Below are positions 9,520-54,615 of a stretch of 64,000 bases of DNA, piece after piece. The notes beneath the pieces were generated by a model that had not been told where the DNA came from, ran no database searches, and saw only the letters and a program-made list of their open reading frames with translations. Each line of letters begins with the position of its first letter. Within the stretch, counting starts at the first letter, position 1. The position numbers and the translations under genes were made by a program. This DNA is from Methanocella paludicola SANAE (GTDB taxonomy: Archaea; Halobacteriota; Methanocellia; Methanocellales; Methanocellaceae), in the NCBI RefSeq assembly GCF_000011005.1, contig NC_013665.1, positions 1,651,501 to 1,715,500 on the forward strand. The letters run 5' to 3'.

Positions 9520-9924
9520 TTAACGGTACGACTTCTGGAACTTCGCCCTTGCGCCCGATCCGCCGTAGTGCTTGGACTCCTTCGCACGTATATCGTTCAC
9601 GAGGAGTGTCCTGTCGTGGCTCAGGTAGGTGTCGCGCAGCGCCATGTCGTTCGTCCAGTTGACGATGCCTCTTGCAATGGCGCACCTCGCGGCCTCCGCC
9701 TGCCCCATGACGCCTCCGCCACGGATGTCGACGTCGATATCGACCTGGCTGAAAATCTCGGTGCCCGCCATTGTGAGGGGCTCGGTGATCTTGAGCCTGA
9801 TGATGTCCGGCTGAACGAGAGGCAGTGGTACCTTGTTGATGCGTATGATGCCCGTGCCCTTGCGAACTGTCGCCCGGGCGATAGCAGTCTTCCGCTTTCC
9901 GCTTGTAGTTATGACCTTGACCAT
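9520..9924 (-). CDS. rpsI: 30S ribosomal protein S9
   Basis: 134 residues. It shows [19 protein letters not shown] at the N-terminus and the basic C-terminal tail ending in KFQKSYR, whose final Lys-Ser-Tyr-Arg contacts P-site tRNA in this family. It lies 9 bp after the L13 gene, forming the usual L13-S9 pair. Confidence 0.95.
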
Positions 9925-9933
9925 GCTCTCACC

Positions 9934-10353
9934 TTAAAATTTTGATCCTAGAAGCTTTGAGAGTTCGCCGAGCTCCATGTACTTGTATGAGCTCAGGCGG
10001 TCTACGCTCGCCTTCTCCAGCGTTACGGCCTCTTTGCCGCTGACTTCGGTCGGCGTGCCGATGAAGACCCTGAGGCGTGCCATCGCGTCCTTCCCGCGCT
10101 GCGCCTTGTAGGGCAGCATGCCGCGGATAGTGCGCTTTATGATGGCGTCCGGCCTCTTCGGGTAGTACGGCCCCTTTTCTGTGGTGCCGCGGTCCACGGT
10201 CTGCTTGAACTCGGCGAACGTGGATGCCTTCGAGCCCGACAGTATTGCCTTGTCGGCGTTGATGATCGTGACTTCTTCGCCCTCAAGTAGCTTCTTGGCT
10301 ACGATGCTCGACAGCCTGCCGACGATGAGTCCCTGCGCGTTAATTAATACCAT
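9934..10353 (-). CDS. rplM: 50S ribosomal protein L13
   Basis: 139 residues. It starts [16 protein letters not shown] and has the [18 protein letters not shown] segment of archaeal L13/uL13. It is an early assembly protein of the large subunit. It lies 12 bp after L18e and 9 bp before S9, so the three are one transcription unit. Confidence 0.95.
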
Positions 10354-10365
10354 GCTTTGTCCTCC

Positions 10366-10728
10366 TCACCTGATGATGCGGACACCCTTGCCCGCGGGGT
10401 TCGTCTTCATGAGCTGTTCGATTGACATGCACTTGCCGTTGGCGCCGGAGATAAGTTCCTCGGCGGCGACGCTGAAGTTGAGAGCGGCGACCGTTACGGG
10501 GTGGTCGATGACGCCCGTGCCCAGGACTTTGCCCGGTACCAGGATAGTCTCGTTCTCCTTCGAGTAGCGGTTGATCTTGCTGATGTTGACCGCCGCGTAG
10601 TGCCTTGCCGGCTTCTCGAATCTCTCGGCAATGTCTCTCCAGAGCGCGACATTGTGCTCCCTGGACTGTGCCTTGAGGTCGAAAATGAGCTTCGATAATC
10701 TAGGGTTGGTTTTCTTTAAAGCCTTCAT
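10366..10728 (-). CDS. rpl18e: 50S ribosomal protein L18e
   Basis: 120 residues with NPRLSKLIFDLKAQSREH at the N-terminus, VPGKVLGTGVIDHPVTVAAL in the middle and NPAGKGVRIIR at the C-terminus, all typical of archaeal/eukaryotic L18e. It is the first gene of the minus-strand cluster here. In many archaea the RNA polymerase subunit D gene lies directly upstream; here a leader and a long palindrome take that place. Confidence 0.95.
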   Translation of the reverse strand: MKALKKTNPRLSKLIFDLKAQSREHNVALWRDIAERFEKPARHYAAVNISKINRYSKENETILVPGKVLGTGVIDHPVTVAALNFSVAAEELISGANGKCMSIEQLMKTNPAGKGVRIIR

Positions 10729-10917
10729 TTCTGAACCTCCGTAAGGCCTTCAGGCCTGACTCACGCATCGACGGTTTGATCGGTGCGCTCGGGCATTTCG
10801 CCCATTCGCCGGATAACCAGTGTTATCCTACGGTTCGCGTCATTTTATGATGACGGAGGCTCATAATGCCATTCGAGCATATGAAGTTTTCGGTAATTTT
10901 CCCGTATATATAGAGGT
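10729..10917 (-). promoter_or_regulatory. Promoter and structured leader of the L18e-L13-S9 operon
   Basis: On the minus strand a TATA-like run (CTCTATATATACGG, about 10903-10916) lies some 175 bp before the L18e start. The intervening leader can form a 7-bp hairpin with a 4-nt loop at 10811-10828 (GGATAAC and GTTATCC arms), and AGGCCT direct/inverted copies lie at about 10744-10757. A leader of this length before ribosomal protein genes could serve autoregulation; that is inference. Confidence 0.5.
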
Positions 10918-10969
10918 TTTACCACGGCCGGCACGGAGGGCAGCCTCTGTTTTAAGCCCGCTAAGAGGA

Positions 10970-11646
10970 TAAGTCCGCGAAGACGTTTTTCGAGCCCTAA
11001 GACCGCTAAGCTTGCGCAAAGACCGCGAAGACTATCTTAAAATTTATTACGATATAACGCCTAATCCATTTGAATATTAATTATCTTTGGATCTTCTCCA
11101 ATTTTTGGATGAACGTTCTTTTGCTTTTACTTATGCCTTCCTGGAGTGTCCAATACACAGGGCCACGAAGTCACGGAGGACTCACAAAGACTTTTTTTTA
11201 TATGCAAGGCTCAGAGGGGACAGAGCCCGGTTTATTATTTTCCTGAGAGACAGAGATCATCGAGATACGGTTGACGAATAAACAACGTTAAAGTGAAAAA
11301 TGGTTTATCGTCGCCCGAGCCTTTTTCAACTCTGTCTCTCAGTTAAGTATAAACCCGTCTCCGTCCCCTCAGTGTCTCCCATCTAAAAGAAAAACTCCGT
11401 GCGTTCTCCGTGGCCTCGTGGCCCTGTGTATTGGACACTCCACGACGGCATAGGGAAAAGGATACAAAATGTTTAACCTAAAATCACAGCAGGCAATAAA
11501 AACCAATAGTTCCTCATCCAACAATCGGAGAAGAACCACTTTCTTTTAATGTTTCTTTTAATATATCTTCGCGGTCTTTGCGTAAGCTTAGCGGTCTTAG
11601 GGCTCGAAACAGTCTTCGCGGACTTAACAAGCTTCGCGAGCTTAAA
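10970..11646. repeat. Long imperfect palindrome, family B copy 1
   Basis: About 680 bp. The outer arms are of the type AGTCCGCGAAGACG ... CGCAAAGACCGCGAAG and its complement at the far end (TTCGCGGTCTTTGCG ... CGTCTTCGCGGACTT). Middle arms centre on TGGAGTGTCCAATACACAGG and its complement, and inner arms on CTGAGAGACAGAG. A nearly identical copy in reverse orientation lies at about 54.67-55.31 kb. No protein is credibly encoded. This accounts for the gene-free stretch 10918-11688. Confidence 0.85.
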
Positions 11647-44561: not shown

Positions 44562-44763
44562 CCACCTCCCATTTTATCGACATTCAGCCCACTGGATTAT
44601 CTATATATAATGATTTATCATCAATAAATCGTAATAAACTCTCCGGTCCACTGCTAATCACGTTCGTGACAATGCCGGCAGTATGTAAGTTCATCCACCT
44701 CAAACGCCGCTTATGTATTTATTTTCGCATGTCCGACATGAGTATGTGTGAGGAGGGTATTTG

Positions 44764-45078
44764 TTGAGGAGTATTCACGCTATTTTGATCATGGCCGCCT
44801 GCCTGGCCGCCATGATGCCTGCTTCGGCCGGCCTGGCCGGGCTTCAGTTCGGCTTCCCGGTACTGGTCCAGTCAGGGCAGTCCGTATCATATAGTAACGA
44901 TATTGCCACGATGACGGACCTGGAGTCGATCAATATCGACTTTCCCATGTTCGACGGCCTGATGTCCGGCACGCCATCGGCCGGGGTAATGGATACCGGC
45001 CTGGCGATGGGCCCCATGATAACGGACATGAGCGCCATGGGCAGCCTTTTTGACTTCTCACGGTTCAAGCTTCATTAA
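44764..45078 (+). CDS. Array protein 1: secreted SFGFP-type protein, short
   Basis: 104 residues. A signal peptide ends at about PASAG, then LAGLQFGFPVLVQSG opens the module that defines the array, followed by DLESINIDFPMFDG. The C-terminal tail is missing and the protein ends DFSRFKLH, so it is shorter than its relatives. The start is read as TTG at 44764, because the GGAGGG at 44752-44757 then sits six bases away as in the paralogues; a TTG one codon earlier is less likely. Confidence 0.75.
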   Translation: MRSIHAILIMAACLAAMMPASAGLAGLQFGFPVLVQSGQSVSYSNDIATMTDLESINIDFPMFDGLMSGTPSAGVMDTGLAMGPMITDMSAMGSLFDFSRFKLH

Positions 45079-45244: not shown

Positions 45245-45685
45245 ATGAGTAAGGTTATGAAAGGACTTCTGCTTGTGCTGGCCATCGCTCTCATCGCGGT
45301 GCCTGCATCTGCGAACCTTGTGGCGACCTCGTTCGGTTTCCCGGTGATCGTGCAGAGCGGCACGACCAGCGCCTTCAACCAGGACACTGCGTTCGCATCC
45401 GACTTCGAGACACTGGACATCGATTTCCCCGTCTTTACGGATGGTGCAGAGCTCGGCGCTACTGTCGGTACGGCCGCTGTTGACGGCGTCTCTCTGGTCG
45501 GCTCAGCCAACGTGCTGCCTTTTGGCCCGGTGAACCTGGCGTTCCCGTCCATTAGCCAGACGGTGGAGCAGACCCAGGAAGTCACGCACACCGACTTCGC
45601 GCAGACCAACGAGTTCGCTGAGTTCGCGTATCCGTTCGTCGGCGTTGGCGCAGTCGCGCTGCCCGGATTCGGCTTCGGCTGGTAA
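45245..45685 (+). CDS. Array protein 2: secreted SFGFP-type protein
   Basis: 146 residues. Signal peptide 1-24 (MSKVMKGLLLVLAIALIAV, cleavage after PASA). The mature part starts NLVATSFGFPVIVQSGTTSA, then a DFETLDIDFPVF strand, a variable centre (about 63-86), and a Gln/Thr-rich region (SQTVEQTQEVTHTDFAQT) before AYPFVGVGAVALPGFGFGW. No cysteine, no membrane anchor. GAGGAGGG precedes the start. The gene has its own terminator. Close paralogues follow at 45893, 46559 and 47243. Function unknown; secreted. Confidence 0.88.
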   Translation: MSKVMKGLLLVLAIALIAVPASANLVATSFGFPVIVQSGTTSAFNQDTAFASDFETLDIDFPVFTDGAELGATVGTAAVDGVSLVGSANVLPFGPVNLAFPSISQTVEQTQEVTHTDFAQTNEFAEFAYPFVGVGAVALPGFGFGW

Positions 45686-45713
45686 ACGAAGGTATAATTG
45701 CTGAAAATTCGAT

Positions 45714-45747
45714 GGTAGGAGATTTAAGCTCCTGCCGGTCTTTTTTT
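45714..45747 (+). terminator. Terminator of array protein 2 gene
   Basis: GGTAGGAG (45714-45721) and CTCCTGCC (45729-45736) pair around a 7-nt loop and are followed by seven T. Confidence 0.75.
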
Positions 45748-45836
45748 ATTAGTATTGCTTTATAAAGTCCTGGGTGATAACTGCTCATTCCGTGTTTAGA
45801 CGATTAATAATCAATAATATTTGCTTTTTAATATAA

Positions 45837-45848
45837 TAATATTTTAAT
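45837..45848 (+). promoter_or_regulatory. Array promoter box of protein 3
   Basis: TAATATTTTAAT, ending 45 bp before the ATG at 45893, the same distance as for proteins 2 and 4. Confidence 0.6.
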
Positions 45849-45892
45849 CAACGCTTATGATAAGTACTATTAGTAATTGAGGAGGGTAGTTT

Positions 45893-46333
45893 ATGAGTAA
45901 GGTTATGAAAGGACTTCTACTTGTGCTGGCCATCGCTCTCATCGCGGTGCCTGCATCTGCGAACCTTGTGGCGACCTCGTTCGGTTTCCCGGTGATCGTG
46001 CAGAGCGGCACGACCAGCGCCTTCAACCAGGACACTGCGTTCGCATCCGACTTCGAGACGTTAGATATCGACTTCCCCGTATTCGGGGATGGCTTTGAGC
46101 TCGGCGCGACCGCCGGCGTCGTTGCTGCAGACGGCGTGGCACTCACTGGCACTGCTAATGTGCTGCCTTTTGGCCCGGTGAACCTGGCGTTCCCGTCCAT
46201 TAGCCAGACGGTAGAGCAGACCCAGGAAGTCACGCACACCGACTTCGCGCAGACCAATGAGCAGGCAGAGTTCGCGTATCCGTTCGTCGGAGTAGGGCCT
46301 GTCGCGCTGCCCGGATTCGGCTTCGGCTGGTAA
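45893..46333 (+). CDS. Array protein 3: secreted SFGFP-type protein
   Basis: 146 residues, near-identical to protein 2 in the first ~60 and last ~60 residues. The centre differs (FGDGFELGATAGVVAADGVA). Signal peptide, SFGFPVIVQSG start and GFGFGW end are conserved. The DNA of the conserved ends is almost unchanged while the centre is diverged, a mosaic suggesting gene conversion. A terminator follows at 46362. Confidence 0.88.
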   Translation: MSKVMKGLLLVLAIALIAVPASANLVATSFGFPVIVQSGTTSAFNQDTAFASDFETLDIDFPVFGDGFELGATAGVVAADGVALTGTANVLPFGPVNLAFPSISQTVEQTQEVTHTDFAQTNEQAEFAYPFVGVGPVALPGFGFGW

Positions 46334-46361
46334 ACGAAGGAATAAGTAACTAAAACTTTAT

Positions 46362-46395
46362 GGTGGGAGATAAAACTCCTACCAATCCCTTTTTA
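46362..46395 (+). terminator. Terminator of array protein 3 gene
   Basis: GGTGGGAG (46362-46369) and CTCCTACC (46376-46383) pair around ATAAAA, followed by a T-rich run. Sequence differs from the neighbouring terminator but the design is the same. Confidence 0.72.
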
Positions 46396-46502
46396 TCATG
46401 ATCATTTTAGCGATTTATTTTGCCCTATAATAACTTTGGCGATTACGGCTCATGTCCGTGTTTAGACGGTTAATACTCAAAAATATCTGCTACAATTTAT
46501 AA

Positions 46503-46514
46503 TAATATTTTAAT
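46503..46514 (+). promoter_or_regulatory. Array promoter box of protein 4
   Basis: TAATATTTTAAT, ending 45 bp before the ATG at 46559. Confidence 0.6.
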
Positions 46515-46558
46515 TGAGGCTTGTGATAAGTACTATTAGTAATTGAGGAGGGTAATTT

Positions 46559-47002
46559 ATGAGTAAGGTGATAAAGGGACTTCTGCTTGTGCTAGCCATC
46601 GCGATGATCGCGGTGCCCGCATCTGCGAACCTTGTGGCGACCTCGTTCGGTTTCCCGGTGATCGTGCAGAGTGGCACGACCAGCGCCTTCAACCAGGACA
46701 CTGCGTTCGCGACCGACTTCGAGACGGTGGACATCAATTTCCCGGTCTTCCAGGACGGAACTGTATTTGGGCCGACTGACGGGACTATTGGTACCGTCGA
46801 TCCTATCGCTCTGGATGGCACGGCCAACGTGCTGCCTTTTGGCCCGGTGAACCTGGCGTTCCCGTCCATTAGCCAGACGGTGGAGCAGACCCAGGAAGTC
46901 ACGCACACCGACTTCGCGCAGACCAACGAGTTCGCTGAGTTCGCGTATCCGTTCGTCGGTGTCGGCGGATGTGCTCTTCCGGGATTCGGCTTCGGCTGGT
47001 AA
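46559..47002 (+). CDS. Array protein 4: secreted SFGFP-type protein
   Basis: 147 residues. Same architecture as proteins 2 and 3 but one residue longer in the divergent centre (QDGTVFGPTDGTIGTVDP). It has a single cysteine near the C-terminus (VGGCALPGFGFGW), unlike the close paralogues. Signal peptide and GAGGAGGG present. Confidence 0.88.
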   Translation: MSKVIKGLLLVLAIAMIAVPASANLVATSFGFPVIVQSGTTSAFNQDTAFATDFETVDINFPVFQDGTVFGPTDGTIGTVDPIALDGTANVLPFGPVNLAFPSISQTVEQTQEVTHTDFAQTNEFAEFAYPFVGVGGCALPGFGFGW

Positions 47003-47032
47003 GGTAGAAGAGTGTCCTACGACTAAGCAGTG

Positions 47033-47070
47033 GCAGGAGCGAGCCTCCTGCATGACTTTTTTATTTTTTT
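47033..47070 (+). terminator. Terminator of array protein 4 gene
   Basis: GCAGGAG (47033-47039) and CTCCTGC (47045-47051) pair around CGAGC, followed by T-rich sequence. Confidence 0.72.
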
Positions 47071-47242
47071 CTCCGATTATTCTAACGCATGCCGAAAAAC
47101 AATTCGCATCGTCGGATAAGCCTCAAAACTGGTATCCTCCTGTGTTTATCCGATAAAAATTAAGTAATAATCGCATAATATTATAATAATGGCTAAATCG
47201 GTGGTATCGATATCTCCTTTTAGTAATTGAGGAGGGTAGTTT

Positions 47243-47683
47243 ATGAGTAAGGTTATGAAAGGACTGTTACTTTTGCTGGCAATTGCCATGGTAACGATGC
47301 CCGTATCTGCGAACCTTGTGGCGACCTCGTTCGGTTTCCCGGTGATCGTGCAGAGCGGCACGACCAGCGCCTTCAACCAGGACACTGCGTTCGCGTCGGA
47401 CTTCGAGACATTAGACATTAATTTCCCGCCCTTTGTCGGGGACACTGTACTCGGGCCACTGGTCGGAACGGCTGCTGTCGATGGAGTATCTGTGACTGGT
47501 ACCGCTAATGTGCTGCCTTTTGGCCCGGTGAACCTGGCGTTCCCGTCCATTAGCCAGACGGTCGAGCAGACGCAGGAAGTCACGCACACCGACTTTGCGC
47601 AGACCAACGAGCAGGCAGAGTTCGCTTATCCGTTCGTCGGAGTAGGGCCTGTCGCGCTGCCCGGATTCGGCTTCGGCTGGTAA
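47243..47683 (+). CDS. Array protein 5: secreted SFGFP-type protein
   Basis: 146 residues, fourth of the close paralogues. Conserved ends, divergent centre (VGDTVLGPLVGTAAVDGVS). The promoter flank differs: the 12 bp before AATTGAGGAGGG is kept but the AT box lies farther up (about 47177-47191). A GGCAGG-type hairpin follows at about 47692-47715. Signal peptide 1-24. Confidence 0.87.
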   Translation: MSKVMKGLLLLLAIAMVTMPVSANLVATSFGFPVIVQSGTTSAFNQDTAFASDFETLDINFPPFVGDTVLGPLVGTAAVDGVSVTGTANVLPFGPVNLAFPSISQTVEQTQEVTHTDFAQTNEQAEFAYPFVGVGPVALPGFGFGW

Positions 47684-47833: not shown

Positions 47834-48214
47834 ATGAAAAGACTGAGCTGTCTCTTTATACTAATTGCGTTACTCGGGATGGCAGTCCCGTCGGGCGCGG
47901 CATTAGCGCCGACATCGTTCGGGTTCCCTACGATGTTCCACAATGCGGGCACGACCGTTTTTAACCAGGCTGTCAGCAACGCCTGGGACCTGGAAAGCCT
48001 GGACCTTTCCCCGTTCGGCACCAGCACTTTCGGCTTCCCCGCGGTTAGCCAGAGCGGCGTCCAGGGCCAGGCCATAATGGCGACCGAGTTCGCGCAGACC
48101 ACTGAGATCACTTCGTTCTCGTATCCCGCCATCACGACCACCGGCATCAACGGCTTTGGCGACTTCAACGGCTTTGGCGGCTTCGGCGACATCGACGGCT
48201 TCAACTGGCTTTGA
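47834..48214 (+). CDS. Array protein 6: secreted SFGFP-type protein with Gly/Phe tail
   Basis: 126 residues. Signal peptide to about residue 22, then LAPTSFGFPTMFHNAGTTVF, the FPAVSQSGVQGQAIMATEF region and SYPAITTTG. The tail GFGDFNGFGGFGDIDGFNWL replaces the usual end. GGAGGAGGG precedes the ATG. It links the SFGFP set to the Gly/Phe-rich members of the array. Confidence 0.85.
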   Translation: MKRLSCLFILIALLGMAVPSGAALAPTSFGFPTMFHNAGTTVFNQAVSNAWDLESLDLSPFGTSTFGFPAVSQSGVQGQAIMATEFAQTTEITSFSYPAITTTGINGFGDFNGFGGFGDIDGFNWL

Positions 48215-48354: not shown

Positions 48355-48732
48355 TTGAAGAAGGCATTATTTGCCATAATGGCTTTATCAGCCATCTTAA
48401 TAGTCGCGGCTGCCATTTTCGTGCCCGCGAGCGCACAGCTCACGTCCACGTCGTTCGGCTTTCCCGTGATCGTACAGAGCAGCGATACCGTAGCTTTCCA
48501 GCAGTATACGGCTGACGCGTTAGACTACGAGGACGTCAGCATAGACTTCCCGGTGGCTGGCTGTGGCCTGCCCTTCGGGGCCGTGAGCCTGGCGTTCCCC
48601 AGCATACACCAGACATCGCTGCAGACGCAGTCCATAACGCAGACCAGCTTCGCGCAGACCAGCGAGTTCGCCGAGTTCGCTTACCCGTTCGTCGGAGTGG
48701 GCAGCCTCGGGCTCCCGGGCTTCTGCTTCTAG
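48355..48732 (+). CDS. Array protein 7: secreted SFGFP-type protein
   Basis: 125 residues from TTG at 48355, chosen because GGAGGG (48341-48346) lies eight bases upstream; an in-frame ATG at 48325 would place that ribosome site inside the gene. Signal peptide to about PASAQ, then LTSTSFGFPVIVQSSDTVAF, FPSIHQTSLQTQSITQTSFAQ and EFAYPFVGVGSLGLPGFCF. Two cysteines, one in AGCGLP and one in the last GFCF. Confidence 0.83.
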   Translation: MKKALFAIMALSAILIVAAAIFVPASAQLTSTSFGFPVIVQSSDTVAFQQYTADALDYEDVSIDFPVAGCGLPFGAVSLAFPSIHQTSLQTQSITQTSFAQTSEFAEFAYPFVGVGSLGLPGFCF

Positions 48733-48886: not shown

Positions 48887-49249
48887 ATGAGAAAAGCAAT
48901 AGCGGGAGCATTGTTCGTGCTTGCCCTGGCCCTGGCCTCTGGATTATTCCTGGCTTCGCTGGCCACGGCGGCGTCCGGGCAGTTCTCCCCGATGTCTTTC
49001 GGCTTTCCGAACGTAGTGCATTCGCTGACGAGTACTTCCTGGGTACGGGATACGGCCGATATGTTCGACTTCGAGGACGCCTCGATCGTACCGACCGGGG
49101 GATACTTCCCGGCGATCCATCAGACGTCGATACACACGAGGTCGCTGAGCCATACCGAGTATTCGCATACGTCGGAGTTCACTTCCATCGGGTATCCGTA
49201 TGTATCAGCGGGGCCCGGCCCGTACGGCGGTTTTGCCTGCGGATACTAG
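48887..49249 (+). CDS. Array protein 8: secreted SFGFP-type protein, His/Ser-rich
   Basis: 120 residues from the ATG at 48887; an ATG at 48875 is in frame but lies within the ribosome-site region. Signal peptide, then FSPMSFGFPNVVHSLTSTSW, FPAIHQTSIHTRSLSHTEYS and GYPYVSAGPGPYGGF. The Gln/Thr pattern of the close paralogues is kept but with His/Ser. A CGAATATTTTAGAT box lies 50 bp upstream. Confidence 0.83.
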   Translation: MRKAIAGALFVLALALASGLFLASLATAASGQFSPMSFGFPNVVHSLTSTSWVRDTADMFDFEDASIVPTGGYFPAIHQTSIHTRSLSHTEYSHTSEFTSIGYPYVSAGPGPYGGFACGY

Positions 49250-49436: not shown

Positions 49437-49799
49437 ATGAATAAACTGGCAGTGGTACTTATTATTGCGGCGGCCGTCACTCTTCTGGCGCTGCCGGCTT
49501 ATGCGTCCCTTGTACCCATGTCCTGGGGGTTCCCCACTATGGTCCAGAATAATTCGCTGACCAATTTCGAGAGCAACTTCGCATGGGCCAGCAATAACGA
49601 GTTCTCCGACATATCGTTCCCGACGTCGACGTGTTCGGGCTTAAGCGCGTTCAGCGCATTCCCGACGATCACGCAGATGTCGAACTCCGAGCAGCTGGTC
49701 TCGCAGGTCAAGTTCTCGAACCAGCAGCAGAGCATGTCGTTCTCATATCCGTGGATCAGCATCGGGTTTTCGCCTGTGCCTTCTATGGGTTTCCTCTGA
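49437..49799 (+). CDS. Array protein 9: secreted SWGFP-type protein
   Basis: 120 residues. Signal peptide to about residue 23 (LPAYAS), then LVPMSWGFPTMVQNNSLTNF, FPTITQMSNSEQLVSQVKF and FSYPWISIGFSPVPSMGFL. The Phe of SFGFP is Trp here. GGAGGG lies 11 bp before the chosen ATG; an earlier in-frame ATG at 49416 would put that site inside the gene. Confidence 0.84.
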   Translation: MNKLAVVLIIAAAVTLLALPAYASLVPMSWGFPTMVQNNSLTNFESNFAWASNNEFSDISFPTSTCSGLSAFSAFPTITQMSNSEQLVSQVKFSNQQQSMSFSYPWISIGFSPVPSMGFL

Positions 49800-49919: not shown

Positions 49920-50285
49920 ATGATGAAAAAGTTAGCCTTATTTGTAATTGTCTTACTGGCGGCTGCTACGATCGTAGTGCCGGCTAGCGCTGGACTGGTG
50001 CCCATGTCCTGGGGATTCCCCGTGTTGATCCAGAACGCGTCATTGACCGGCCTGCAGTCACAGACGGCCACGGCACACGACATCGAGTCGGCCGCGATCG
50101 ATTTCGGAGGCGGCGGCTTCGGTGGTAGCATATTCGGGGGGGCGTTCCCGTCCATCGCGCAGTTCGCCGACCAGGGCCAGTCGCTTACCAGCCTGGGTTT
50201 CGCCAGCCAGAACCAGAACATGATCTTCGCGTACCCGTTCATAAGCATCGGCGGCTCTCCGATACCGGGCATGGGCTTCTTCTGA
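49920..50285 (+). CDS. Array protein 10: secreted SWGFP-type protein with Gly insert
   Basis: 121 residues. Signal peptide to about PASAG, LVPMSWGFPVLIQNASLTGL, a Gly-rich stretch (DFGGGGFGGSIFGGAFPSIA), QNQNMIFAYPFISIGGSPIP and final GMGFF. It combines the SWGFP module with a Gly/Phe segment. GAGGAGGG precedes the start; either of the two adjacent ATG codons could be used. Confidence 0.84.
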   Translation: MMKKLALFVIVLLAAATIVVPASAGLVPMSWGFPVLIQNASLTGLQSQTATAHDIESAAIDFGGGGFGGSIFGGAFPSIAQFADQGQSLTSLGFASQNQNMIFAYPFISIGGSPIPGMGFF

Positions 50286-50444: not shown

Positions 50445-50486
50445 TATCGTTTCCTTTAGATATGAGTGTCAAGTAGGGGGGATTGT

Positions 50487-51530
50487 ATGAGTATAAGAAA
50501 AATAGCCGTACTATCGATGCTGGTCGTTCTGCTCATTGCGTCCAGCGTATCGGCATCGGCTGCAGTTATCGGCGGTGGAGGTATCTCGGCCACCTCAGCG
50601 TCCACGTTCGCGGCGACATCTACCGGGTTTAGCTCATTCGGCGGCTTCGGCAGTGGCTTCGGCAGTGGCTTCGGCGCGTTCGGCGGCTTCGGCTTCCCGT
50701 TTAACTGTGGCTTTGTACCGTTTGGCGTGGGAGCGTTCCCATTCAACTGGGCGTTAGGCGGAGGATTCGGCCCATTCCCGTTATTCGGGTGGGGCAGGTT
50801 CAGTCCGGGATTCTTCGGAACCTGTGGAGGTAGTTTCCCATTCAGCCCGTGCTTCATGGGCGGATGTGGTTTAACCGGGCCTGCAGCGCTGCCCGCTATC
50901 GGCGCTAACGCGCCTCTCGGCGGCATTGCGAAGGGCATTGCGAAGGCGTCGGTGGACCAGGGTGTGCCGTTCATTCTCGGCTCGCCTCTGGGAGCTTCGC
51001 CGGTGCTGGGCTGGGATGTGTCTTCGTGGGCCTTCGGCCTGCAGAGCTGTGTCAGGAGCCTGCCTCTGTACTTTGGTGCACATGGCTTCGGGTTCCCGTT
51101 CACGCTGGGCAACTACAGGATCGGCATGATCCCGTCCTGTGGCCTGCCGTGCGGCATACCGGCTCCCGCATGTCTGCCTGCAGCGCTGCCCGCTATCGGC
51201 GCTAACGCGCCTCTCGGCGGCATTGCGAAGGGCATTGCGAAGGCGTCGGTGGACCAGGGTGTGCCGTTCATTCTCGGCTCGCCTCTGGGAGCTTCGCCGG
51301 TGCTGGGCTGGGATGTGTCTTCGTGGGCCTTCGGCCTGCAGAGCTGTGTCAGGAGCCTGCCTCTGTACTTTGGTGCACATGGCTTCGGGTTCCCGTTCAC
51401 GCTGGGCAACTACAGGATCGGCATGATCCCGTCCTGTGGCCTGCCGTGCGGCATACCGGCTCCCGCATGCCTGCCTGCAGCGCTGCCCGCTATCGGCGCT
51501 AACGCGCCTCTCGGCGGCATTGCGAAGTAA
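50487..51530 (+). CDS. Array protein 11: secreted Gly/Phe-rich protein with 99-residue tandem repeats
   Basis: 347 residues. Signal peptide 1-24, then a Gly/Phe-rich region (about 40-125, GFGSGFGSGFGAFGGFGF). From about residue 133 two copies of a 99-residue unit follow, then the first 17 residues of a third. Each unit starts AALPAIGANAPLGGIAKGIA and includes six cysteines or fewer (SCV, SCGLPCG, ACLP). The DNA units are 297 bp and differ by about one base. Start at 50487 follows a GGGGGG site. Secreted, no anchor; the function is unknown. Confidence 0.85.
   Translation: MSIRKIAVLSMLVVLLIASSVSASAAVIGGGGISATSASTFAATSTGFSSFGGFGSGFGSGFGAFGGFGFPFNCGFVPFGVGAFPFNWALGGGFGPFPLFGWGRFSPGFFGTCGGSFPFSPCFMGGCGLTGPAALPAIGANAPLGGIAKGIAKASVDQGVPFILGSPLGASPVLGWDVSSWAFGLQSCVRSLPLYFGAHGFGFPFTLGNYRIGMIPSCGLPCGIPAPACLPAALPAIGANAPLGGIAKGIAKASVDQGVPFILGSPLGASPVLGWDVSSWAFGLQSCVRSLPLYFGAHGFGFPFTLGNYRIGMIPSCGLPCGIPAPACLPAALPAIGANAPLGGIAK
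50881..51528 (+). repeat. 297-bp tandem repeats in array protein 11 gene
   Basis: Unit starts at 50881, 51178 and 51475, each beginning CTGCAGCGCTGCCCGC; the third is cut after about 54 bp at the stop codon. The first two units are nearly identical over the whole 297 bp, with one visible difference (CATGTCTGCC against CATGCCTGCC). Confidence 0.9.
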
Positions 51531-52060: not shown

Positions 52061-52219
52061 GCTCAAGCGAATATGGGCTGCACGAGAACGATCGTATGAT
52101 TGCTAGTAGGCGTGGACAACGCCTACTACACTATTTATTTTTCAGCTTAAATTTCCGGGCAGGTGCGCCATTTCTATTATTTTACGCTTGCAGGGCCGAA
52201 TTATTCGCTTATTGTTTTA

Positions 52220-52235
52220 CTAATATATATTAAAT
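52220..52235 (+). promoter_or_regulatory. Array promoter box of protein 13
   Basis: CTAATATATATTAAAT, 42 bp before the ATG at 52277. Confidence 0.55.
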
Positions 52236-52276
52236 CGATAATGAAATCTGTACATATATCAGAGGAGGGTATATTT

Positions 52277-52744
52277 ATGGAAAAAAGGAGGGTACTGGCG
52301 CTTATCGCTGCCGCACTATTCATATTCTTCACGGTAGCCCCGGCAGGCGCCGATTTCATAGGCACGGGAGTCACTTTTGCAAAGGATTTCAGCGACAGCA
52401 TCAACGTGAACGTGGCCAAGATCGCGGGCCTTGATGATACCGCATTCGCCGGCGTCGGCACGTCTATCGGCGTGAGCTGGGATGTACCGGTGAATATTAA
52501 CGTTCTCGCAGGGTACCCGTACGGGTACGGCGGCGTAGGGGTCGTGACCACGGGCAATACGGGCTATGCGCTCGGCCTCAATATGGACATGGTCCAGACT
52601 TCAGGGTTCGACGGCTCCGACTTCGGAATACCGCTCGCGCAGCAGGGCACCACGTCGACGCACTTTGGCAAACTGTGGGCTGCCGAGAACCAGATCGATA
52701 ATACTCAGGCGTTCCTTCCCTTCTCGAGCTTCCCGGTATTATAA
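52277..52744 (+). CDS. Array protein 13: secreted protein, divergent
   Basis: 155 residues. The ATG at 52277 is chosen by GAGGAGGG seven bases upstream. Signal peptide to about PAGAD. The mature part lacks SFGFP but has alternating beta patterns (INVNVAKIAGLDD, SIGVSWDVPVNINVLAG) and a YPYGYGGVG segment. It shares promoter box and ribosome site with the rest. Function unknown. Confidence 0.8.
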   Translation: MEKRRVLALIAAALFIFFTVAPAGADFIGTGVTFAKDFSDSINVNVAKIAGLDDTAFAGVGTSIGVSWDVPVNINVLAGYPYGYGGVGVVTTGNTGYALGLNMDMVQTSGFDGSDFGIPLAQQGTTSTHFGKLWAAENQIDNTQAFLPFSSFPVL

Positions 52745-53048
52745 GGCCGCCGGATTCCTTTTTTTTATTGCCGGGCTGGCGCTCATTTTTTTAGCTTTAG
52801 CTTCGCTATTATAATTCCCGTTAGCGCAGATATAACTAGCCTATTATTTTACCCTTTAAGCAAATATGAGGCTATATTTTGCCCTGTTAAAAGTAATTGC
52901 CATTTATACAACCCATTTTAAACTATTAGCCATGATTAATACCCAGAATGCGTTAAAGAGCTTCAGAACGGTTACATTTCGTATTTTTATATACTAATTT
53001 ATTTATCTTGTCTTATTAGACATAAGTGTGCAGTTCGGAGGTGTAGTT
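52745..53048. other. Intergenic AT-rich region with promoter of protein 14
   Basis: GGCCGCCGG then eight T (about 52744-52765) likely ends the previous transcript. The rest is AT-rich. CTAATTTATTTAT at 52994-53006 matches the array promoter box, 43 bp before the ATG at 53049. No gene is seen. Confidence 0.5.
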
Positions 53049-53804
53049 ATGAAAATGGCAAGAACCCTAAGTGTAGCCATTCTTTGTATAGTGGCTACGT
53101 TGTTAGTAGCGGTACCCGCTTACGCACAATTTTGCGGGCCCGCACCCCTGGCCGGTGCCTGCGGGGCGCCTGTGGCATATGGGCCTCCCCAGGATTGTGT
53201 AGCACAAGTCTATTGCAACATTCCGGTCACTTCCCAGGTGCCCGTGACCGTGCCCGCAACCTCTGCGGTACAGGTCCCGATCACCGTGCCGGTGGCGGAC
53301 GTTTGTCCCGTGACGGTCCCGAGGGCAGTCGTAGTGCCCCAGACGATCCCGGTGCCCTTCGTCAGGCCGGCAGTGACCTCGACTACGGTCCCGGTCACGG
53401 TGCCCGTCTGCTCGAGCGTGCCCGTAACGTCCATGATCCCGCAGTGCTATACGGTACCGCTGGGATGTGGGGCAGGAATTCCGCCGGCCGTAGGAGCTAA
53501 CGCTCCGATCGGCGCGAACGCGCCCATCGGCGGCCTCAGCAAGGGCCTCGACAAGGGCCTCGGTGCCAACATGGGCATGGGCCTCGGCAAGGGCATCGGC
53601 GGCTACGGCATGGGCATGGGCGGCCTCGGCGGCTTCGGCTCGCCGTATGGAATGGGCGGCCTCGGCGGCTTCGGCTCGCCGTATGGAATGGGTGGAATCG
53701 GCGGCTTCGGCTCGCCCTATAGCGGCATGGGCATGGGCGGCCTCGGCGGCTTCGGTGGCATGAACCTCGGCGGCTACGGCGGCCTGGGCTCGATGATGAA
53801 ATAA
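53049..53804 (+). CDS. Secreted Pro/Val-rich and Gly/Met-rich protein in the array
   Basis: 251 residues from the ATG at 53049 (GGAGGTG upstream). Signal peptide to about AYAQ. Residues 50-135 are repeats of the type VPVTVP/VPITVP/TVPV. A short segment AVGANAPIGANAPIGGLSKG echoes the GANAPLGGIAKG of the repeat protein at 50487. The C-terminal ~90 residues repeat GMGGLGGFGSPY several times. It is very low in charge and likely structural. It shares the array-type box at 52994. Confidence 0.82.
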   Translation: MKMARTLSVAILCIVATLLVAVPAYAQFCGPAPLAGACGAPVAYGPPQDCVAQVYCNIPVTSQVPVTVPATSAVQVPITVPVADVCPVTVPRAVVVPQTIPVPFVRPAVTSTTVPVTVPVCSSVPVTSMIPQCYTVPLGCGAGIPPAVGANAPIGANAPIGGLSKGLDKGLGANMGMGLGKGIGGYGMGMGGLGGFGSPYGMGGLGGFGSPYGMGGIGGFGSPYSGMGMGGLGGFGGMNLGGYGGLGSMMK

Positions 53805-53985
53805 GCCCGCAGCATACATGCAAAAATAAAGGTTGGGAAAACTGGCATGTAAGCATAAGCGAACTGGGAAGCAGTGCCTTTCCAGTTCGTTAATATCATT
53901 AAAATAACCTTTTTTATCGTTTATTTGGCCGGTTATGTATTTATCGGGCCGGGACTACCTACTCTTAGAGTTGGGTGGGAGTTGT

Positions 53986-54615
53986 ATGGTGAGGTACAAC
54001 CTGTTCCCCGTTGTGGCCGTTATACTGCTATACTTTAGCTGTCCGTCCGCTCTTGCGGCGGACTCCGGCATCGGGGGTATCGGCCTGTATGGGTTTCCGA
54101 TGAATATCGTGCCCGTTGGCGCGGGGGCCGCGGCCACTGCCGGCCAGGGCTACACGTATAATAACATAGGCTATGAGCTGCCCGATTTTGCCAGCACTTA
54201 CGGCTTCACGGCCTTCGAGAGCTCTCCCATACTTACAGGCACCACCGGCTATTTCGGGCCCGACCTGGGCGGCATCGACCTGGGCGTTTCGTTCGGCCTG
54301 ACCCAGGCCGACCACGACGCCTCAAAGACAGCCTTCTCAAAGGACCTCATGTACCAGGCCGACCTTGAAAATACTTTTATCGCCTTCCCCGGCATCGGCG
54401 TCGGCTCGCTCGGTGTCCTGTTCCCCACGATCAGCAATGAAAAGTCCAGCATCAAGTATGCCGAGAGCATTAAGTTCGAGTTCACCACGGAGAGCGATAA
54501 GTTCCAGATGGCGGGCTTCGGGTACCCGCTGGGCCTGGGCCTCGGGTATACCTCGGCCACCGTGGCGAGCAGTCCCGGCGCCAGCCTGGTTAACTCGCCA
54601 TACTACTTCGCCTAA
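53986..54615 (+). CDS. Secreted protein, last gene of the array region
   Basis: 209 residues from the ATG at 53986; an earlier in-frame ATG at 53935 has no ribosome site, while GTGGGAG precedes this one. Signal peptide to about ALAAD. The mature protein alternates Gly with aromatic residues (GIGGIGLYGFPMN, GVGSLGVLFPTISNEKS, MAGFGYPLGLGLGY), including the GFP and FPTIS patterns of the array. No anchor. A long palindrome follows. Confidence 0.8.
   Translation: MVRYNLFPVVAVILLYFSCPSALAADSGIGGIGLYGFPMNIVPVGAGAAATAGQGYTYNNIGYELPDFASTYGFTAFESSPILTGTTGYFGPDLGGIDLGVSFGLTQADHDASKTAFSKDLMYQADLENTFIAFPGIGVGSLGVLFPTISNEKSSIKYAESIKFEFTTESDKFQMAGFGYPLGLGLGYTSATVASSPGASLVNSPYYFA

Follow-up and report, generated by a model that had tools for sequence, protein, structure and literature searches.

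Gene conversion in an undescribed tandem family of secreted proteins of Methanocella paludicola, rather than a rapidly varying surface antigen

The tandem genes

The window analysed here is a stretch of 64,000 nucleotides (1651501–1715500) from the rice-paddy methanogen Methanocella paludicola. The genome was available as a single contig of 2,957,635 bases, as reported for the chromosome (PMC3146512). Four open reading frames lie in tandem on its forward strand: P1 (45245–45685; 146 aa), P2 (45893–46333; 146 aa), P3 (46559–47002; 147 aa, with one extra codon in the linker) and P4 (47243–47683; 146 aa). They were identified as open reading frames and compared by alignment and by regional synonymous divergence (dS), and their positions are exactly those given in an earlier note on this DNA.

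The four proteins share one plan: an N-terminus that reads like a signal peptide, then two modules (SFGFPVIVQSGTTSAFNQDTAFASDFETLDIDFP and NLAFPSISQTVEQTQEVTHTDFAQTNEFAEFAYP) joined by a linker, and last a Gly/Phe tail. In P1, signal peptide, module 1, linker and module 2 are followed by a GFG tail. Module 1 (SFGFPVIVQ...DIDFP) occupies 45329–45430 in P1, with equivalents at 45977–46078 (P2), 46643–46744 (P3) and 47327–47428 (P4); module 2 (NLAFPSISQ...EFAYP) lies at 45533–45634, 46181–46282, 46850–46951 and 47531–47632, respectively, all on the forward strand. Both were delimited by internal-repeat profile matches, and low dS marks codons 24–54 and 89–123. Between them lies a divergent centre, codons 55–88, defined by variable sites and dS (P1, 45407–45508; P2, 46055–46156; P3, 46721–46825; P4, 47405–47506; all forward). 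It takes in the final eight residues of the first module and most of the linker; the linker end, NVLPFGPV, is common to all four copies.

Among P1–P4, 60 of 102 sites vary in codons 55–88, as against 5 of 102 in codons 21–54 and 4 of 99 in codons 89–121 (Fisher p = 5e-26), the two flanking stretches together having 9 of 201. Divergence along the genes is far from uniform; the earlier note had named uniform divergence as speaking against its reading. In 30-nt windows, pairwise identity is 96–100% around codons 21–50 and 91–120 (93% in a few windows), and 46–73% at codons 61–90. The note had described near-identical DNA over the first and last ~180 bp of each gene, with a strongly differing centre of ~75 bp. 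The conserved runs and the differing centre are there, but the centre is ~100 bp long and the gene ends vary as well, with 18 of 60 variable sites in codons 1–20 and 18 of 75 in codons 122–146. The pattern is therefore one of two internal conserved patches, with variation in the signal peptide, in the centre and in the tail. The patches largely overlap the two ~34-residue modules, and the variable part corresponds to the end of module 1 plus the linker.

For comparison, three other genomes of Methanocellaceae were used alongside this single genome of M. paludicola. Genes are labelled by genome (P for M. paludicola; A, C and E for the three relatives) and numbered in tandem order. A (3,179,916 bp) we take to be M. 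arvoryzae, C is Methanocella sp. PtaU1.Bin125, and E belongs to a different genus of the family. Two further full-length copies in M. paludicola, P5 near 1.095 Mb and P6 near 0.837 Mb, were also compared.

The surrounding array

The tandem genes are part of an array of related secreted genes, all on the forward strand, that extends from 44761 to about 50285, with more secreted genes up to 54615. Directly before P1, a gene at 44761–45078 matches the family profile with module 1 only (E 3e-24). Downstream of P4 follow a short-linker member (47834–48214; E 1e-31), a member that lacks most of the linker and is the nearest relative of P1–P4 beyond the four themselves (48355–48732; 64% identity), a second short-linker member (48887–49249; E 2e-31), and two members of an SWGFP subtype (49437–49799, syntenic in three relatives; 49920–50285, E 7e-40). 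Next come a secreted Gly/Phe-rich protein (50466–51530), two distant profile relatives, likewise secreted (52163–52744, E 2e-17; 53935–54615, E 4e-30), and between these a secreted protein with GGFGSPYGMGG repeats (53028–53804); all four are syntenic in three relatives. The gene at 50466–51530 contains a near-identical internal duplication of about 99 residues, and has perhaps itself been recently duplicated or converted.

A gene that, from its sequence, is presumably ribosomal protein S6e-like comes first in a conserved gene order. This order, S6e-like gene, tandem copies, SWGFP, Gly-rich, 52163, 53028, 53935, is kept in all four genomes, and the tandem copies at the syntenic locus number 4, 2, 2 and 3.

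Homology among P1–P4 reaches about 60–80 nt upstream of the start codon and ends shortly past the stop codon. The common promoter or leader region of P1 (45175–45244, forward), found as repeat family D5 and by upstream alignment, ends in AATTGAGGAGGGTAGTTT; equivalents precede P2, P3 and P4 and, in part, other array genes. The leader element AATTGAGGAGGGTAGT is kept across genomes, which points to some constraint at the DNA level near the start. Downstream of P1 lies a terminator-like hairpin (45713–45737, forward), with similar ones after P2 (46361–46384) and P3 (47033–47051); since the region holds 15 such sites against 12.1 expected by chance, the hairpins carry little weight by themselves. 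Notably, though, hairpins of the form GG(C/T)AGGAG...CTCCTGCC followed by T runs recur 3' of several of these genes in different genomes, with equivalents at the C and E loci (L052 and L055).

Modules and protein family

The two ~34-residue modules are, as judged from profile comparison, ancient homologous internal duplicates. Aligned profile to profile, they pair over 34 columns without a gap at a score of 28, the maximum among 60 column-shuffled control profiles being 16. Internal-repeat tests on single sequences gave a mixed outcome, and the profile comparison is the clearer of the two.

An iterated profile recovers 46 family members within the examined regions of the four genomes, among them the distant relatives downstream to 54615; outside P1–P4, linkers range from almost nothing to about 35 residues. 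Across 392 genomes of the phylum, confident matches occur only in P, A, C and E; two additional matches (E about 7e-4) cover just the N-terminal part. In the contigs of the named genomes, a scan with a single protein found no relatives, and the sole match of an alignment-based scan was Methanocella sp. PtaU1.Bin125. No family relatives were found in viral contigs, no Pfam, NCBIfam or PHROG profile matched above cut-off, and a PDB sequence search returned no match. By its confident matches, the family thus appears restricted to Methanocellaceae and undescribed. A literature search found nothing on expression of these genes.

AlphaFold models, for which the alignments were small, have low confidence (pLDDT 55 and 62; pTM 0.23 for the latter). 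In both, each module forms a beta segment of 26 residues, and the linker between the two is of low confidence or unstructured. A fold search with such a weak model gave nothing at E ≤ 0.001. Pore-forming proteins that appeared in it (E above 0.003, TM below 0.4) were judged meaningless matches between long beta hairpins.

Elsewhere in the examined regions, a distant family member, a secreted protein of 446 aa (L047:7956–9296, reverse strand), carries a YVTN/lactonase-like beta-propeller after an apparent single module near its N-terminus, which suggests that the module is portable. Pairs of secreted proteins of 289–403 aa (L043:8499–9587, reverse, and 9896–11107, forward; L050:9701–11783, reverse) resemble the family in their N-terminal part and seem to have a C-terminal part (P.WI.P...W.L) in common; Pfam gave no match to them.

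Homogenised patches within the genome

Among P1–P4, dS is 0–0.10 in codons 24–54 and 0–0.18 in codons 89–123; in codons 55–88 it ranges from 1.16 to saturated, with dN of 0.21–0.37. The two distant copies share these patches selectively. P5 shares the second patch only, with P1 and P3 (dS 0.09; first patch 0.54–0.64), and P6 shares mainly the first patch with P1–P4 (dS 0.15–0.27; second patch 0.60–0.95). Between genomes, second-patch dS runs from 0.6 to saturated. The values for P5 and P6 imply that synonymous sites can change and that the patches move independently; because synonymous sites there are free to vary, codon constraint does not explain patch identity.

Identity runs at polymorphic sites were tested by permutation in sets of four and six P genes and in E. 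Conversion-like tracts join P1 and P2 over codons 10–56 (global p 0.004 with four genes, 0.0002 with six), P1 and P3 over codons 87–133 (p 0.022 and 0.0018) and P2 and P4 over codons 129–146 (p 0.001). They also join P3 to P5, about 600 kb away, over codons 108–127, and to P6, about 860 kb away, over codons 32–59 (global p 0.0002 each). In E, tracts connect E1 with E2 (codons 60–144) and E1 with E3 (codons 1–28; p 0.0002 each). Both the regional dS and the tracts show homogenisation in discrete stretches at synonymous sites, as concerted evolution entails.

Leaders and coding regions in relatives

The leaders of the first copies A1, C1 and E1 (L049:7922–8011, L052:6850–6939 and L055:11276–11365) are distinct from the second-copy type and form one group (support 100/99). 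The mature coding regions, by contrast, group by genome in all four cases: P and E with support of 100/100, C with 81/63, and A with identical copies. A grouping of A1 with A2 is rejected for the leaders (p 3e-5), and that of A1, C1 and E1 is rejected for the mature coding region (p 8e-6), both values being somewhat optimistic since the clades were named after inspection of the leaders. On this sequence evidence, the combination in A, C and E of leaders sorted by position and coding regions sorted by genome is a classic sign of concerted evolution. In each of the four genomes, paralogues are closer to each other than to orthologues elsewhere, and the leader group shows that the duplication predates the split of the lineages compared.

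All four P leaders are closer to the second-copy type. The gene at 44761–45078, directly before the tandem copies, could be what is left of a first-type copy after decay. The existence of two leader types also means that near-identical proteins may sit under two different promoters.

The divergent centre

Of the 34 centre codons, 22 differ in amino acid among P1–P4 and 10 differ synonymously only. The earlier proposal was that the centre diversifies, or that selection makes it vary, as happens in variable surface proteins, and dN/dS by region had been suggested as a check. Where computable, the centre ratio is 0.08–0.32, a rough figure given that dS is saturated, but one with no hint of an excess of amino-acid change. 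A genome search with each of the four centres found no near-identical second copy, and hence no archive of alternative segments for them; for the P1 centre the best other match, at 72%, lies in a further member of the family. Across the centre, the tandem copies of A are identical to each other, and so are those of C. E1 and E2 differ there at two synonymous sites, and E3 is unlike both. A common centre pattern is retained in distant family members. With dN/dS around 0.1–0.3 and saturated dS, the centre is old and constrained; being homogenised in A, C and E1/E2, it is not generally variable but has escaped conversion in M. paludicola. The idea of a centre diversified by selection finds no support in these results. 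The other half of the proposal, conversion that homogenises the flanks, is borne out by the low-dS patches beside saturated dS, by tracts that include distant copies, and by the conflict between leaders and coding regions.

Weighing the explanations

The probable explanation is an old tandem family of modular secreted proteins in which conversion overwrote the modules and the centre diverged under purifying selection. The sequences show that the copies are old, that short conversion tracts have repeatedly overwritten modules among P1–P4 and, as single patches, in P5 and P6, and that codons 55–88 escaped and diverged under purifying selection. Conversion needs matching DNA, and tracts would end through poor pairing at linkers that have diverged in length and sequence. 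Linker loops presumably tolerate change, modules would have to remain compatible, and selection for interchangeable modules would favour their overwriting.

Other histories account for parts of this picture. A recent tandem duplication followed by birth-and-death turnover, in which the centre is simply the part under least constraint, fits the varying copy number (4, 2, 2, 3) and the identity of whole mature regions in A, and tandem duplication with loss can imitate part of the similarity within genomes. It does not produce patchy mosaics whose partners differ from patch to patch and include copies hundreds of kilobases apart, nor leaders that sort by position across genomes, and it predicts low dS in a centre where dS is saturated; we consider it unlikely. 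Even less probable is a history without conversion, in which purifying selection of an extreme kind, on the protein as well as on DNA or RNA, holds the patches identical. The near-zero dN of the modules and the conservation of AATTGAGGAGGGTAGT are what such selection would leave, yet those patches show free synonymous change in P6, P5 and the other genomes, with dS from 0.5 to saturated in most comparisons. On these values we also rejected the view that the patches are identical through codon or RNA constraint.

The signal-peptide-like N-termini, and a centre that is the most variable part both within the set of four and from genome to genome, recall variable surface proteins, in which conversion keeps the ends alike, with a centre that varies under selection or is exchanged from a repertoire of cassettes. 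In Borrelia vls-type antigenic variation, conserved regions surround a variable region and gene conversion takes part. P1–P4 differ from that system in showing no silent cassette archive, no excess amino-acid change and no evidence of swapping. Antigenic-variation cassettes were rejected for want of donor copies, and a centre under constraint, common to tandem copies in relatives and keeping its pattern in distant members, makes this reading improbable. A diversity-generating retroelement or an inversion switch would likewise localise variability inside otherwise conserved genes. The genome holds no near-identical template for any centre, the region has no inverted repeats and the variation includes a codon indel, and the chance of such a mechanism is close to negligible. 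The locus thus records the work of gene conversion in an undescribed family, rather than a rapidly varying surface antigen.

Relation to known systems

Concerted evolution by recurrent conversion is known in prokaryotes from tuf, mtrA and mtmB/mtmC, every archaeal case in that account coming from a methanogen (PMC6053082). The present family resembles these in that paralogues are closer than orthologues, at synonymous sites too and in several lineages. It differs in that conversion in M. paludicola is confined to patches smaller than a gene, in that the products are small secreted proteins, and in that the leaders still record the old orthology.

A looser parallel is offered by the SH/MspA sheath proteins of Methanospirillum and Methanothrix, which are secreted, beta-rich, lineage-restricted and multi-copy (PMC11576556, PMC10593813, PMC6242892). 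Sheath proteins of methanogens are amyloid-like and clustered, neighbouring copies being up to 100% identical (PMC11576556), and MspA contains two imperfect repeats (PMC6242892). The likeness, in secretion, beta-richness, two repeats and clustered copies, is one of working principle and an analogy only. The P1–P4 family is much shorter (about 120 aa mature), with no confident sequence match outside Methanocellaceae and no structural match to a model that is too weak for a verdict on the fold. Methanocella is absent from the text of the sheath survey. No evidence of homology was found, and we do not class these proteins with the sheath proteins.

Significance

The Gly- and aromatic-rich secreted neighbours and the beta-rich modules point to a structural extracellular role. 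The products could well be beta-rich extracellular structural proteins that pack via their modules, and separate promoters would then provide nearly the same protein at several expression settings, though we would put this at somewhat below even. More speculative, and on balance doubtful, is an extracellular beta-polymer or coat specific to Methanocellaceae, to which some twenty secreted proteins built on the module would contribute; conversion would keep the packing modules interchangeable between paralogues, and linkers and promoters would specialise.

With this locus, recurrent concerted evolution below the level of the gene gains a clear example from the Archaea, one whose leaders record the old duplication. 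It also brings out an uncharacterised, syntenic cluster of secreted proteins common to all four Methanocellaceae genomes searched. These methanogens are of importance for the methane that rice fields emit, and their cluster offers a testable candidate for an as yet undescribed surface structure.
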